The notes beneath the pieces were generated by a model. That model was not told where the DNA came from and searched no databases. It worked only from the letters and a program-made list of their open reading frames with translations. Below, piece after piece: positions 10,738 to 63,454 of a stretch of 64,000 bases of DNA. The first letter of the stretch is position 1, and every line of letters starts with the position of its first letter. The stretch is from NCBI RefSeq assembly GCF_011320095.1, contig NZ_JAANOY010000001.1, positions 186,001 to 250,000 of the forward strand, read 5' to 3'. The position numbers and the translations under genes are program-made. The stretch is from Cognatiluteimonas telluris. Lineage in GTDB: Bacteria > Pseudomonadota > Gammaproteobacteria > Xanthomonadales > Xanthomonadaceae.

Positions 10738-10848
10738 GTGGGAGCGGCTTAGCCGCGAGCTCCCCCAGCCTGGACCCTCCGGCCATCGAGCCATCGACAC
10801 CCATTACCCGCATCGAGGGCAGGAGCTCGCGGCTGAAGCCGCTCCTAC
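10738..10848. repeat. Inverted pair of GTAG-type REP elements (REPIN)
   Basis: Two copies of the palindromic element GNNGGAGCGGCTTCAGCCGC face each other: 10738-10760 (edge GTGG, with one base deleted in the loop) and 10824-10848 (edge GTAG on the minus strand), about 63 bp apart. GTAG REPs of this kind are known in Stenotrophomonas and relatives and are mobilised by RAYT transposases; none is encoded here. The minus-strand edge supplies the TAG stop of the DUF763 gene. Confidence 0.8.
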
Positions 10849-12248
10849 CGGCGTGCGGACTGCGAGGCCTGTTGGCGGTGCGCGGCGGCTGCGTCGATCT
10901 CGGCCTCCCAGCCGAAGATGCTGCGGCCGCCGTAGCCGTGCGAGGCGCGAAGCTCGTCCGCGATCAGCGCCTCCACCGACGGGCCGCGCGCGCGTGCTTC
11001 GAGCCGGCGTGCCTGCGCGTCCAGCCGCCGCAACGCCTGCAGCTGTTCCTCGCGCCCGAGCCTGGCGTCGTGCACCGCGCGCTTGAGCACGGCGATCGTG
11101 TGGTCGTAGACCTTCGTCGGCACCGGGAACGGATGCCGGTCCTTGCCGCCATGCGCCAGCGAGAAGCGCGCCGGATCGGTGAAGCGGCAGGGCGCGCCAT
11201 GCAGCACTTCGGCGACCAGCGCCAGCGCGCGGACGGTGCGCGCGCCGACGCCCGGGACCTGCAGCAACTCGGTGAAATCCTGCGGTCCACATTCGGCAGC
11301 TGCGGCGAGGTTGCCGTGCAGGCGGCGCAGGACGACATCGCTGCCGCGCACGTCGTGGTGGTCGGGGAGCGACAGGTGCGGCAGCAGGCCAAGCTGCAAT
11401 GGCGCCGTCGCATCGTTGCTGCCGCCCGCGGCCCGCGCCGTTACGGGCAACCGTGCCGCCTGTCGGCCTTCCATCGCACCCGTTCCGCCTTCACCGCCAG
11501 GCCGGACACGTGCGCGCTTCGCACCAGGCGCGTCCTCCGCCGCTGCGATCCTGGAGTACTCGCGCGCAATGGCCTCCACGCCCATCGATCGCAGCAGCTC
11601 GACCTGCGCATCGCGTGAGCGCGCCGCGCGCCGGTCGGCGAGGTTGACGATGTTGCCCTGCCCCTGGCCTTCCACCGCGGCATGCGGATCGTCGACGAAG
11701 CTCGTCAGCTGCTCGGACAGCCAGTGATAGCGGCGCGCCTGCTTCGATGCGCCGTTCATGCCCTGCTGCACCACGACCCACTTGCCGTCGTCGGCGACGA
11801 TGAAGCCGTGCAGGTACAGGTCGAAGCCATCCTGCACCGCCGCGCTGTCGACCTTCGCCACCAGCCGGCTGGCGCGCGCGAGTCCCGCGCCGTCGATCCC
11901 GACGCGCTCGCCGATCGCCAGCAGTTCCCCCGGCGTCTTGCGTGAATGCCGCCCGCGGCCGCCGCAGACGTGGATTCCCAACTCGCCCGAGAGCGGCGCC
12001 AGGCCCCGCTTGAGCGCGCCGATCACGCTGGTGGTGATGCCGGAGGAATGCCAGTCCATGCCCATCACCGCGCCGAAGGACTGGAACCAGAACGGATGCG
12101 CGAGCCGACGCAGCAGTTCATCGCGTCCGTATTCGTGGACGATCGCCTCGCACATCACCGCGCCCAGGCGGGTCATGCGATCGGCCAGCCACGCCGGCAC
12201 GCGGCCACCGTGCAGGGGAAGATCGGCGCTGCCGGAACGACGGGTCAT
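10845..12248 (-). CDS. DUF763 protein with a helix-hairpin-helix motif
   Basis: A 467-residue DUF763 family member of unknown function. The conserved N-terminal region (SADLPLHGGRVPAWLADRM), FQSFGAVMGMDWHSSG, the Gly/Arg-rich GGRGRHSRKTP and the C-terminal KDRHPFPVPTKVYD are all present. Residues about 327-350 (ELLQVPGVGARTVRALALV) form a classic helix-hairpin-helix, so DNA or RNA binding is likely. Residues about 240-290 are a low-complexity insertion. GGAGG lies 5 nt before ATG 12248. The stop codon TAG (10845-10847) is part of the GTAG edge of a REP element, so the end of the coding region may have been shaped by insertion. Monocistronic. Confidence 0.85.
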   Translation of the reverse strand: MTRRSGSADLPLHGGRVPAWLADRMTRLGAVMCEAIVHEYGRDELLRRLAHPFWFQSFGAVMGMDWHSSGITTSVIGALKRGLAPLSGELGIHVCGGRGRHSRKTPGELLAIGERVGIDGAGLARASRLVAKVDSAAVQDGFDLYLHGFIVADDGKWVVVQQGMNGASKQARRYHWLSEQLTSFVDDPHAAVEGQGQGNIVNLADRRAARSRDAQVELLRSMGVEAIAREYSRIAAAEDAPGAKRARVRPGGEGGTGAMEGRQAARLPVTARAAGGSNDATAPLQLGLLPHLSLPDHHDVRGSDVVLRRLHGNLAAAAECGPQDFTELLQVPGVGARTVRALALVAEVLHGAPCRFTDPARFSLAHGGKDRHPFPVPTKVYDHTIAVLKRAVHDARLGREEQLQALRRLDAQARRLEARARGPSVEALIADELRASHGYGGRSIFGWEAEIDAAAAHRQQASQSARR

Positions 12249-12390
12249 GGACGCCTCCAAAGGAGGCGCACGATGCCGTGACGACGTCGCGGATGCTGCG
12301 ACGCTGGTGTTCATCTTGCTGACCGCATCGCGACATGGCCGGCACGCGACACGTCGCGCGGACCGCGGCCCGATGCCGGTCAGCCCATCG

Positions 12391-24252: not shown

Positions 24253-25642
<1,390 letters not shown>

Positions 25643-30056: not shown

Positions 30057-30083
30057 GGGGCTCGCGGCTGAAGCCCCTCCTAC
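30057..30083 (-). repeat. GTAG-type REP element at the miaA stop
   Basis: Read on the minus strand it starts GTAGGAGGGGCTTCAGCCGC; the stem is imperfect because GGGGCTTC pairs with GAAGCCCC only in the extended fold. Its GTAG edge contains the TAG stop codon of miaA (30080-30082), the same arrangement as at the DUF763 and phaZ genes. Confidence 0.75.
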
Positions 30084-31042
30084 GCGGGGCGTTGCCGCAG
30101 GAACAGGCGCGCGGCAGCGTCCAGCTCGTCGCGCTGGGCGATGGTGTCCAGCCAGCGCGCGTCGAGTTCGCCGCGCAGCCAGGTGAGCTGGCGCTTGGCC
30201 AGTTGCCGGGTGGCGAAAATCGCGCGGTCGCGGAACGCATCGGCATCGGTGTCGCCCGACAGGTATTCCCAGGCCTGCCGGTAGCCCACGGCGCGCACCG
30301 CCGGCAACTCGAGCGGATGCGGATGCGATTGCAGACCCGGCAGCGCGCGCAACCGCCGCACTTCGTCCAGAAAACCTTCGTCGAGCATGGCGTCGAAGCG
30401 GTGCTCGATGCGGGCGTGCAGCTGCGCGCGATCGACGGGGGCCAGGGCGAGCTTGAGCACGCGCAACGGCAGCGGCTTCCCACGGTGGTCGCGTTGCCAG
30501 TCGCTGATCGAGCGCCCGCTGGCGCACCAGACTTCCAGCGCACGCTGGATGCGCTGCGCATCGGTGGGATGGATGCGCGCCGCCGCCTGCGGGTCGACGG
30601 CAGCGAGTTCCGAATGCAGCGCATCCCAGCCGCGCGCCTGCGCCTGCGCGGCCAGCTGCGCGCGCAGCTGTGGGTCGGCCTCCGGCATCGGCGCCAGTCC
30701 ACGCAGCAGCGCGCGGAAGTAAAGCCCGGTGCCGCCGGCGAGGATCGGCAGTTTCCCGCGCGACACGATGTCGTCGATGGCCGCGCGCGCATCGTGGGCG
30801 AACTCCGCCGCCGAATACGTCTGCCAGGGATCGCGCAGGTCGAGCATGTGGTGCGCGACGAGCGCGCGCTCGGCCGCCGTGGGCTTGGCGGCGCCGATGT
30901 CCAGTCCGCGATAGACCAGGGCGGAGTCGACGCTGACGATTTCGCCATCGAAGCGTTGCGCCCATTCCAGCGCCAGCGCCGACTTGCCCGATGCGGTCGG
31001 GCCCATCAGCGCGATGGCGCACGGTCGCACGCCGGCACTCAT
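30080..31042 (-). CDS. miaA: tRNA dimethylallyltransferase MiaA
   Basis: Adds the dimethylallyl group to A37 of tRNAs reading UNN codons. The 320-residue protein has the P-loop [13 protein letters not shown], the substrate-binding [16 protein letters not shown] (usually DSMQVYRGMDIGTAKP; here Ala-Leu replaces Met-Gln), [18 protein letters not shown] and [12 protein letters not shown]. It is the first gene of the miaA-hfq-hflX block. The start at ATG 31042 is 10 bp after the permease stop. The stop TAG is part of the GTAG edge of a REP element, so the final residues (QRPA) abut the insertion. Confidence 0.96.
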
Positions 31043-31052
31043 CGCGCCGGCA

Positions 31053-32471
31053 TCAGGTATCGCGGCCCTGCGCGAGCAGGCTGCTGCGACGCGCATACAG
31101 CAGGTAGACCAGCAGCCCGAAGGCATTCCACGCCAGGCACCACAGCTGGGTCCGGGTCGGCAGGCTGGTGAACAGATAGGCGCAACCCAGGATCGCGACC
31201 GGGCCGATCACCCACGCCAGCGGCGCCCGGAACGCGCGCGTGCGCCGTGGATCGCGCCTGCGCAGCACCAGCATGCAGGCCGCGACCGCGATGAAGGCGA
31301 TGAGGGTGCCGGCATTGGCCAGCGCGGCGATCTCGTCCAGGCTCGCGACCCCGGCCAGCGCCGACGTCACGATCGCGGTGAAGACCGTGATCGCGACCGG
31401 CGTGCCGCGCCGGCCCACCTTCGACAGGCTGCGGGGAAGCAGTCCGTCGCGCGACATCACGAAGAAGATCCGGCTCTGGCCGTAGAAGAACGCGAGCAGC
31501 ACCGTCGGCAGCGCGATCACGGCCGCCGCGGCGATGACCTTCGCCGCCACGCCGTGGCCGAGCTCGCGCATGATCAGCGCCAGCGGCTCGGGACTGTGGC
31601 CGAACACCGTGTAGTGCATCGCACCGACCGCCGCAAGCGCCACGATCATGTAGATCAGCGTGCAGCCGACCATCGAGCCGATGATGCCGATCGAAAGATC
31701 GCGCGACGGATTTTTCGTCTCTTCCGCCGCGGTGGAAATCGCGTCGAAGCCGTAGAACGCGAAGAAAATGATCGCCGCCCCGGCCATCACGCCATGCTTG
31801 ACATTGTCCGGGCCGGTGGATTCGGCGAAGCCGTATGGCATGAACGGATGCAGGTTGCTGGCGTCGAAGCCGGGCAGCGCGATGGCGACGAACACGCCCA
31901 GTGCCAGCAGCTTGGCCACCACCAGGAAGGCGTTGACGGTGGCGCTTTCGCGCGTGCCTGCGATGAGCGCCCCGGCGACGACCCAGGTGATGGCGATCGC
32001 CGGCAGGTTGATCAGTCCGCCCGCGTGCGGGCCCACCGTCAGCGCCAAGGGCATGTCGATACCGACGCCCTTGAGGAAACCCACCGCGTAACCCGACCAG
32101 CCGACGGCGACCGTGCTGACCACCAGCGTGTATTCCAGGATCAGGCTCCAGCCGACCACCCAGGCGATGGTTTCGCCCAGCACGGTGTAGCTGTAGGTGT
32201 AGGCGCTGCCGGCGGCCGGCATCATCGTCGCCATCTCCGCGTAGGCCAGCGCGGCGCAGGCGCAGACGATGCCGGCGATCAGGAACGACAGCAGCACCGC
32301 CGGCCCGGCGAGGTTGGCGCCGACGCCGATCAGGGTGTAGATGCCGGTGCCCACGATGGCGCCGATGCCGAGCGCGACCAGGTGCGGCCAGCCCAGGCTG
32401 GGGACCAGCCGGCGCCCTTCCTCATGGATGCAGACCTTGTCGATGTCCTTGCGGCGAAGCCAGGTCTGCAT
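31053..32471 (-). CDS. APC-superfamily amino acid permease
   Basis: A 472-residue inner-membrane transporter with about 12-13 hydrophobic helices. The first helix carries the APC signature [15 protein letters not shown], and the central part resembles cationic amino-acid transporters ([30 protein letters not shown]). It is probably a proton-coupled importer of amino acids; specificity is uncertain. I chose ATG 32471 because GAGG lies 5 nt upstream. ATG 32489 or a TTG at 32528 would lengthen the cytoplasmic tail. It is 10 bp upstream of miaA and so may be cotranscribed with it. Confidence 0.88.
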
Positions 32472-61124: not shown

Positions 61125-61227
61125 CGCCTGCCAAACTGAGGCATGCGTCACAGTCCGGTGACGGCCGCGGCGACTTCGCACGGTTATGCTGCACTGCCGC
61201 ACCGATCCGCAGGTGCAGGGGATGCGC

Positions 61228-62499
61228 ATGCTGTTCGCCGGGCAAGGTCTCTACCAGTTCCATGAACTCTGGCGCGCCGGGATGGCGCCCTACACCTACT
61301 GGGCCGAGGCCGGCGCCAAGATGTTCTCCGCCCCCGGCAGCTGGCTGGCGGGCATGCCCGAGGCCACTCGCGTGGCGGCCGGTTGCGAGCTGCTCTACCG
61401 CATCGGCAAGGATTACGAAAAGCCGGAGTTCGGCCTGCACGAGGTCGAGATCGACGGCGCCGCCTACCCGGTCGTCGAGAAGGAAGTCGAACGCACCCCC
61501 TTCTGCCGCCTGTTGCGCTTCAAGCGCTACAGCGACGACGCCGGCAGCATCGCCGGGCTGAAGGACGATCCGCCGGTGCTGGTGGTCGCGCCGCTCTCCG
61601 GGCACCACGCCACGCTGCTGCGCGACACCGTGCGCACGCTGCTGCAGGGCCACAAGGTCTACATCACCGACTGGATCGACGCCCGCATGGTGCCGGCCGG
61701 CGACGGTGCGTTCACGCTGGACGATTACGTCGCCAGCCTGCAGCGCTTCATGCGCGCGATCGGCAGCGATCGACTGCACGTGGTCAGTGTCTGCCAGTCG
61801 ACGGTGCCGGTGCTGGCCGCGGTGTCGCTGATGGCCACGGCCGGTGAGCCGACGCCGCGCTCGCTGGTGATGATGGGCGGCCCGATCGACACCCGGCAAT
61901 CGCCGACCGCAGTCAACAACCTCGCCACCCACAAGCCGCTGTCGTGGTTCGAGGACAACGTCATCCAGGCCGTACCGGGCAACTTCCCGGGGCGCGGGCG
62001 CAGCGTCTATCCCGGCTTCCTGCAGCACGCCGGTTTCATGGCGATGAATCCCGAGCGCCACTTCCAGTCGCACTGGGATTTCTATCAGGATCTGGTCAAG
62101 GGCGACCTCGAGGACGCCGCCGCGCACCGGCGCTTCTACGACGAATACAACGCGGTGCTGGACATGCCGGCCGAGTACTACCTCGACACCGTGCGCATCG
62201 TGTTCCAGGAGCACCTGTTGCCGCGCGGGCTCTGGGACGTCGGCGGCGAGCGCGTAAACCCGGCGAAGATCCATGGCACCGCATTGATGACGATCGAAGG
62301 TGAGCTCGACGACATCTCCGGCCGGGGCCAGACGCGCGCGGCGCATGCGCTGTGCACCGGCATCGACGAAGCCGCGCGGGCGCACCTGACGGTGGCCGGG
62401 GCTGGCCATTACGGCATCTTCAGTGGCCGCCGCTGGCGCACCGAGGTCTACCCGCAGGTCCGCGATTTCATCGCGGCCGCCGATCGCCGCCCTGCGTAG
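61228..62499 (+). CDS. phaZ: Intracellular polyhydroxyalkanoate depolymerase
   Basis: Mobilises stored PHB granules. The 423-residue alpha/beta hydrolase belongs to the PhaZ short-chain intracellular group, where the nucleophile is cysteine: VVSVCQSTVPVLAAV places it at Cys189. Other family marks are YQFHELWRAGMAPYTYWAEAG, LVMMGGPIDTRQSPTAVNNLA, ERHFQSHWDFYQDLVKGD and the histidine in GAGHYGIFSGRRW. I took ATG 61228 because AGGGG lies 6 nt upstream; in-frame ATGs at 61222 and 61186 lie upstream. The stop TAG is the GTAG edge of a REP element. No PHA synthase is nearby. Confidence 0.9.
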   Translation: MLFAGQGLYQFHELWRAGMAPYTYWAEAGAKMFSAPGSWLAGMPEATRVAAGCELLYRIGKDYEKPEFGLHEVEIDGAAYPVVEKEVERTPFCRLLRFKRYSDDAGSIAGLKDDPPVLVVAPLSGHHATLLRDTVRTLLQGHKVYITDWIDARMVPAGDGAFTLDDYVASLQRFMRAIGSDRLHVVSVCQSTVPVLAAVSLMATAGEPTPRSLVMMGGPIDTRQSPTAVNNLATHKPLSWFEDNVIQAVPGNFPGRGRSVYPGFLQHAGFMAMNPERHFQSHWDFYQDLVKGDLEDAAAHRRFYDEYNAVLDMPAEYYLDTVRIVFQEHLLPRGLWDVGGERVNPAKIHGTALMTIEGELDDISGRGQTRAAHALCTGIDEAARAHLTVAGAGHYGIFSGRRWRTEVYPQVRDFIAAADRRPA

Positions 62500-62520
62500 G
62501 AGCGGCTTGAGCCGCGAGCT
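62496..62520 (+). repeat. GTAG-type REP element at the phaZ stop
   Basis: GTAGGAGCGGCTTGAGCCGC followed by GAGCT; the stem is GCGGCT with AGCCGC. The first four bases hold the phaZ stop (62497-62499). The opposite end of the intergenic space (62555-62558) also reads GTAG on the minus strand and supplies the HAAS gene stop, but no matching hairpin was found there. Confidence 0.8.
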
Positions 62521-62554: not shown

Positions 62555-63454
62555 CTACCCCGCCGACTTCACCAGCAGGTGCTTGGCCAGCAGCCCGTGC
62601 CAGCCACCGATCAGCCGCACCAGGTGCAGTGAAGCGAACAGCAGCAGGACCCCGACGATACCTGCCAAGGGCCCGCTCCATGGCGCGCCGATCAGGTCGA
62701 TGCCGACGCCATCGAGCGTGATCGCGTCGCCATGCCCGACGAGCATCAGGAATGGCGTAGCGACCAGCGCCAGCGACAGGCTGAGCAGGCTCACCACCAA
62801 GGTGAAATACACGATCCCCAGCGGCAGCATCAGCAGGAAGTAGAGCTGGGTCGACCACGTGCGCGGATCGGTGAACATCGCGCCGATGCGCTGCAGCCAC
62901 GGCCGCCCGCGCCCACCGTACAACGGGCGGCGTGGCATGCGTTCGCCCAGCATGGCTTCGACCATCCGACCTTCGACCAGCGACAGCACGCGCACCGAGC
63001 CGAAATACAGGATCACGAACGGCACCCCGATGATGAGCAGCGCGAATCCCGCCGACATCGAGATCCCGGTGACCACCCACACGAAATAGAAGATGCCCGT
63101 CGCCAGCGCCAGCACCATGTAGAACAGCGCGGCGTAGGTACGGGGTTCGGCGGCGACGCCGAAGAAGCGGCCGATCAGCGAACGTCGCGGCGGCGGTGGC
63201 GGCGCGCGCAGGGCCGTCTGCACGGTGGCTTCGGTTTCGCGGTAGATGTCGGCGACTTCCGCCGGCGCGCCATAGCTGCCGGCGACCGAGGCGATGACTT
63301 CGGCTTCCGATCGCCCCGGCTGCTCGGCCAGTTCCGAGCGCAGGTATTCCTCGGCGTCGTAAAGCGCGTCCTGCACCAGGGCCGGATCGGCGTTGCCCAG
63401 CGCGGCGCGCAGCTGCTCGAGGTAGGACGCGATGCTGGTTGGAAGGCTGTTCAT
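62555..63454 (-). CDS. HAAS-domain multi-span membrane (sensor-type) protein
   Basis: A 299-residue protein. The N-terminal HAAS/DUF1700-like helical domain (about 1-80; SYLEQLRAALGNADPALVQDALYDAEEYL) is followed by a Pro/Arg spacer and about six membrane helices (YAALFYMVLALATGIFYFVWVV, FALLIIGVPFVILYFG, QLYFLLMLPLGIVYFTLVVSLL and others), a layout called sensor domain in annotation. HAAS proteins are commonly encoded next to PadR regulators and may modulate envelope stress. Its ATG overlaps the padR stop by 4 bp (63451-63454). The stop TAG is within GTAG at 62555-62558. Confidence 0.85.
   Translation of the reverse strand: MNSLPTSIASYLEQLRAALGNADPALVQDALYDAEEYLRSELAEQPGRSEAEVIASVAGSYGAPAEVADIYRETEATVQTALRAPPPPPRRSLIGRFFGVAAEPRTYAALFYMVLALATGIFYFVWVVTGISMSAGFALLIIGVPFVILYFGSVRVLSLVEGRMVEAMLGERMPRRPLYGGRGRPWLQRIGAMFTDPRTWSTQLYFLLMLPLGIVYFTLVVSLLSLSLALVATPFLMLVGHGDAITLDGVGIDLIGAPWSGPLAGIVGVLLLFASLHLVRLIGGWHGLLAKHLLVKSAG

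Follow-up and report, generated by a model that had tools for sequence, protein, structure and literature searches.

Gene stops at the edge of GTAG-type REPs: counts, a GTAG control and a target context for a known feature

In the genome that contains the window (G000; 2.86 Mb, 121 contigs), the TAG at the edge of one family of GTAG-type REPs (family A) is the stop codon of a gene at nine of 57 intergenic GTAG-edged copies among the matches listed. We think it likely that this TAG belongs to the element and is kept at gene ends mainly where it falls in the harmless frame, either through insertion or through capture of a reading frame that had lost its own stop. A stop codon at a REP edge is a known feature: Di Nocera, De Gregorio and Rocco stated in 2013 (PMC3733652, section 15) that the ends of GTAG REPs often supply TAG stop codons. 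The first-pass annotation, which held that this exact repeated placement deserved a look, had seen the placement correctly at three genes, but the observation was already in print; the additions are the counts, the control and the target context, by which the feature is partly explained here.

Results

Within the window (the whole stretch of DNA analysed, 64 kb in length), we found five copies of the palindrome GTAGGAGCGGCTTCAGCCGC with at most three mismatches, versus 0.01 expected. The GTAG edge is kept in four of the five and three of these four edges are in-frame gene stops, which confirms what had been claimed for the DUF763, miaA and phaZ genes, all three of which stop at the TAG of a GTAG REP edge:

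10829-10848, minus strand: GTAG REP copy, exact match; its TAG (10847-10845) terminates the DUF763 gene
10845..12314, minus strand: DUF763 gene, longest ORF (Pfam PF05559)
25569-25588, plus strand: GTAG REP copy, paired in inverted orientation with the next one; no gene in the same direction ends nearby, supplies no stop
25623-25642, minus strand: GTGG-edged partner copy, three mismatches to the 20-mer; supplies no stop
30064-30083, minus strand: GTAG REP copy, one mismatch that breaks a stem pair; its TAG (30082-30080) is the miaA stop
30080..31126, minus strand: miaA, longest ORF (IPP transferase, PF01715)
61186..62499, plus strand: phaZ-like gene, ends in a REP edge (PHB depolymerase C-terminal domain, PF06850)
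62496-62515, plus strand: GTAG REP copy, one loop mismatch; its TAG (62497-62499) is the phaZ stop
62555..63454, minus strand: HAAS/Sensor gene, convergent with phaZ; GTAG end (62558-62555), not a REP edge

The HAAS gene does end in GTAG, as had been noted, but it drops out of the REP pattern: the 20 letters from there mismatch the REP at 14, for which reason a degenerate partner repeat was rejected, and this GTAG therefore resembles an ordinary TAG stop. A G precedes 48 of the 101 TAG stops counted in the stretches, REP edges included. Just past the phaZ orthologue of another genome (L192, G005) lies another repeat-like palindrome, GTAGGGTGGGCTCAAGCCCAC, apparently in the 3' part of the adjacent HAAS-like gene.

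Family A is laid out as a terminal GTAG, an unpaired dinucleotide (GA), a short stem (GCGGCT with AGCCGC) and a 2-nt loop (TC). It can be placed in the GTAG REP superfamily, among the GTAG-1-like elements: (i), the terminal GTAG adjoins the palindrome; (ii), the stem is short, with a loop of 2-3 nt and an unpaired dinucleotide between GTAG and stem; and (iii), the copy number is high, with copies that are mostly extragenic and, among those listed, include inverted pairs. The GTAG-1-like REPs described in the portion of PMC3733652 available to us have the same GTAG end, two unpaired bases, short GC-rich stem and 2-nt loop, and likewise occur in many copies, in head-head pairs and mostly after genes. 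G000 holds 120 family-A matches (at most two mismatches) versus four for the reversed control, and 117 of the 118 copies in its stretches lie outside genes. GTAG is kept in 57 of these 117 intergenic copies, the remainder being mostly GCAG or GTGG. A half copy of the same repeat (e.g. gcaggagcggctt) lies about 20 nt upstream of several copies (for instance at C45 12326, minus strand, and C36 13015, plus strand, in G000), which, judged by the letters, looks like the insertion of one repeat into the loop of a second.

The count rests on 60 G000 stretches fetched around family-A places, among the matches listed, in which a home-made Markov model called 534 genes with a stop, 104 of them TAG. Elements were kept with at most one mismatch to the 16-base core, or with two if at least five of the six stem pairs were intact; copies with three mismatches, or with edges unlike GTAG and the listed variants, are left out of the 118 and 117, and the intergenic counts leave out one element inside a called gene. 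For each REP edge, the offset of the nearest co-oriented stop was measured. Besides the nine copies at offset 0, 17 of the 57 GTAG-edged copies have a stop at -40..-11 and none at -10..-1, and no intergenic copy in G000 has a stop 1-120 nt past the edge. Relative to the local density (17 over the 30-nt zone), nine edge stops have a Poisson P of about 1e-8. A looser list of elements contained 61 GTAG edges and the same nine at a stop, and a 58th copy (C111), checked later, has its stop at -53 and not at the edge. The nine genes are DUF3301, DUF763, miaA, phaZ, PrmC-like, DUF1415, an alpha/beta hydrolase, a carboxyltransferase-domain (CT_A_B) gene and a pseudouridine synthase. Independently of the repeat, a perfect hairpin 0-3 nt after the stop was found in the G000 stretches for 11 of 48 GTAG stops and none of 53 other TAG stops, and for seven of 374 TGA and one of 49 TAA stops; the same test in G013, a genome of another genus of the same family, returned 0 of 30 GTAG stops.

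Any GTAG closes a frame in one of its three phases, and GTAGs unrelated to the REP were therefore used as a control, imperfect as a null since native GTAG stops are there for reasons of their own. In the same G000 DNA, outside genes, 35 such tetranucleotides lie at offset 0 and 57 at -130..-11, versus nine and 33 for the REP edges (Fisher p 0.07, if anything fewer). The apparent stop-codon preference of the REP edges is thus no stronger than that of GTAGs that have nothing to do with the repeat. Set against random placement, as had been suggested at the outset, the edge stops are in excess of free placement (P about 1e-8), but they are not above GTAG as such (p 0.07): what seems a preference for stops largely vanishes when any GTAG, and not any base, is the yardstick.

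The frame was also scored among same-strand copies. Nine in G000 are in frame with the TAG and one is read through, inside a mutase gene (P 0.0004); the named public sample gave five in frame versus three same-strand read-throughs (L312, L319, L338; binomial P about 0.09), and in G013 no copy was in frame while a single same-strand copy lay within a gene. At 9:1, 5:3 and 0:1, the bias is therefore clear only in the window's genome, and a frame bias toward TAG is suggested, with uneven support across the three sets.

The sequence in front of the element bears on where the TAG comes from. The proposal that insertion targets G-TAG at natural stop codons finds no support in the flanks of the 117 G000 elements, which consist of pyrimidines plus C or G with little A: positions -5..-2 are 82-88% pyrimidine (versus 51% in the background), position -1 is C or G in 104 of the 117, and A occurs once at -1 and twice at -2. 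It is also opposed by a CT within the 6 nt that precede GTAG, present in 64 of the 117 elements versus a background of 24.5%, and by three DUF1415 orthologues that end at the same column with TGA and have no repeat there (see below). The corresponding figures for CT are 86 of 185 elements for G013 and 98 of 177 for the public set (backgrounds 23-27% overall). At the nine offset-0 copies, the flanks are 67-89% pyrimidine at -5..-2, with CT in only four of nine; the pyrimidine tract is thus present whether or not the edge is a stop. According to excerpts of PMC8266576, CT is the cleavage site of the RAYT enzymes from E. coli and S. maltophilia, and GTAG guides cleavage by a Marinomonas enzyme. 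With a CT-rich pyrimidine tract, and so the dinucleotide cut by RAYTs, in front of the GTAG, the TAG was most likely brought in by the element. The same tract goes far to explain the absence of stops in the few nucleotides before the edge. A ribosome-footprint exclusion (no stop at -10..-1, versus 13 expected from the local density) was considered and dropped as needless, because the tract leaves little room for a stop codon before GTAG; ordinary GTAGs show nearly the same gap, with a stop in it for two of the 94 that have one within -130..0.

The repeat (at most one mismatch) is present in 15 of the 40 genomes searched, its own included. In G002, of the same genus, two of 19 GTAG edges are stops (12 stretches). 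None of the 157 intergenic GTAG edges sampled in G013 lies at a stop, while 74 of them have a co-oriented stop within 130 nt and none at -16..-1; this sample comprises the first 100 plus-strand places, minus those in gaps between stretches, plus nearby copies, and leaves out elements inside genes (three with GTAG, five with other edges). The named public sample has five stops at 167 GTAG edges among the matches listed (P 0.007 versus local density). It covers 118 stretches among those matches, with several loci per organism and one pooled gene-calling model, and leaves out five elements inside called genes.

C-termini were compared by eye, with anchors chosen by eye, between six of the nine family-A genes (none of family B) and their same-genus orthologues, a comparison that had also been suggested from the window. 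Four of the six proteins end inside the orthologue spread: MiaA is 4-5 residues longer than four of its seven orthologues and shorter than the other three, PhaZ ends between four short and two long orthologues (and is shorter than both that seem to share its downstream neighbour), the pseudouridine synthase falls within the range of five, and DUF1415 shares its end column with three orthologues that use TGA and have no repeat there. The PrmC tail is the longest of nine, by one residue, and in G002, too, a REP-like GTAG closes the gene; the single DUF763 orthologue is about six residues longer than the protein from the window. None of the six genes has lost a conserved stretch or gained a large tail. 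The suggestion that insertion creates new ends therefore survives in a weak form: the element's TAG appears to become the stop, but the protein ends hardly move. The relatives are distant (71-76% identity for miaA), so no true empty site was seen. At the DUF1415 end column, G002 has a TAG with a REP-like hairpin of another kind, GTAGGCGCGCCTTGCAGGCGCG (L235), after it. In G008 and G005 (L234, L232), a GTGGGAGCGACGTGAGTCGC-type hairpin lies a few bases after the TGA of the gene.

A second family in G000 (family B, GTAGGGCGGGTTTCAACCCGCC) provides gene stops at five of 19 GTAG edges in the loci scanned, namely 24 of 30 loci plus L072. Five edges lie at offset 0 and one has its stop at -40..-11, a spike sharper than pooling of in-frame insertions would predict. 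At L386, two opposite family-B copies (C13:54341, plus strand, and 54497, minus strand) lie between convergent genes of 1383 and 603 nt, and their edges supply the TAG stops of both. REPs of both families also occur in coding sequence, within a 3,579-nt B12-binding/MeaB/methylmalonyl-CoA-mutase fusion gene (L060:1963-5541, minus strand, C56), where the family-A copy is read through in an open GTA-GGA-GCA frame.

Discussion

The repeats described here are REPs of the GTAG type, a class of short hairpins whose movement is attributed to RAYT (TnpA-REP) enzymes and presumably has the same cause in these genomes; the GTAG tetranucleotide would be the element's own. Copies lie beside pyrimidine- or CT-rich sites, often within a few tens of bases of the gene end upstream. 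A copy that abuts the end of an open frame stops translation, through its TAG, in one frame of three; the other two continue into the hairpin. Such a copy could persist if its TAG falls in frame and leaves the C-terminus nearly unchanged, as with insertions in the last codons, and also at genes whose own stop, just upstream of a copy, was lost (stop capture); selection would have weeded out most of the remaining frames. Direct insertion may account for DUF1415, and stop capture is possible for miaA and PrmC. The stop habit thus looks like a by-product of where REPs land and survive, and would illustrate how a mobile palindrome can lie directly next to coding sequence and leave it intact.

Insertion does not carry this scheme by itself. 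A strict target-site model (YYYYS) yields 2.7 in-frame cases over the last 10 codons and 5.4 over the last 25, versus nine observed; pooled in-frame insertion over the last codons was rejected as the sole cause since it under-predicts the nine, and stop capture is therefore retained as a contributor. Because the strict model explains only part of the nine and the family-B spike is sharper, there may also be a genuine stop preference.

Stop capture as the main route, with the repeat first lying at least 11 nt downstream, the gene's own stop later lost and translation then reaching the TAG of the repeat, seems to us conceivable but doubtful: stop positions vary among the orthologues of the genes compared, MiaA exceeds four of seven orthologues by 4-5 residues, PrmC is the longest of nine by one, and the shortfall of pooled last-codon insertions leaves room for it, but in G000 as in G002 the end column of DUF1415 is that of the three orthologues with TGA, which leaves no added residues to explain, and PhaZ is shorter than the two orthologues with what seems to be its downstream neighbour. 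The converse order of events, in which the element would enter natural GTAG or TAG stops and the TAG would predate the repeat, could explain why REP edges have offsets similar to those of non-REP GTAGs, among which native stops are numerous, and why family B has five of 19 edges at a stop with only one at -40..-11. We nevertheless judge it improbable: the pyrimidine tract flanks the element regardless of a stop at the edge, 48 of the 57 intergenic GTAG copies are not at a stop, and all three same-column DUF1415 orthologues without a repeat there have TGA.

The arrangement could also have been selected, by analogy with E. coli, where REPs less than 16 nt from the stop lower translation (ref. 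17 as described in PMC12306157): the hairpin, 2 nt after the TAG, would slow terminating ribosomes and tune expression. In two species, REP-like GTAG hairpins form the ends of both DUF1415 and PrmC, and one might go further and see a recurrent, selected terminator-attenuator module, different REP families having repeatedly become the stop of these same genes to slow termination and tune expression. With none of 157 edges at a stop in G013 and a proportion not above that of ordinary GTAGs, selection of the arrangement seems to us quite improbable, and the module a long shot of the same order. The same two results, a proportion that does not exceed that of unrelated GTAGs close to gene ends and the absence of edge stops from the G013 sample, would suit the view that edges meet stops no more often than expected if they were placed at random downstream of genes. 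This is very unlikely indeed, given nine cases in family A and five in the second family of one genome, two of 19 in G002 and five of 167 in the public sample, with Poisson P of about 1e-8 (G000) and 0.007 (public sample) versus local density.

The printed remark on GTAG REP termini comes, in the portion of PMC3733652 available to us, with no count or null for stop use; it gains here a count, a frame test and a GTAG control, together with a motif for the flank. Excerpts of PMC2817692 describe REPs immediately downstream of a stop codon as well, but at rayt genes, whereas the genes here are ordinary ones. The E. coli REPs of ref. 17, as described in PMC12306157, likewise have a hairpin very near the stop codon; there an effect was measured and the distance to the stop was the point, whereas here the stop coincides with the repeat's own edge, known from sequence alone. 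Nothing on stop codons was found in the part of PMC3686654 consulted, and literature searches within non-subscription papers returned no title on counting REP-edge stops.

As for the enzymes, G000 has two Y1_Tnp matches, one of them below the family cut-off. One locus (3.3-kb) is without such a hairpin and the other is near family-B repeats; no Y1_Tnp gene with family A was found in the 121-contig assembly. The RAYT-like gene near family B (L072:1411-1890, minus strand, C67; Y1_Tnp, 21.7 bits, cut-off 23) has family-B REPs on both sides, and its TAG shares only one G with the GTAG of the REP.
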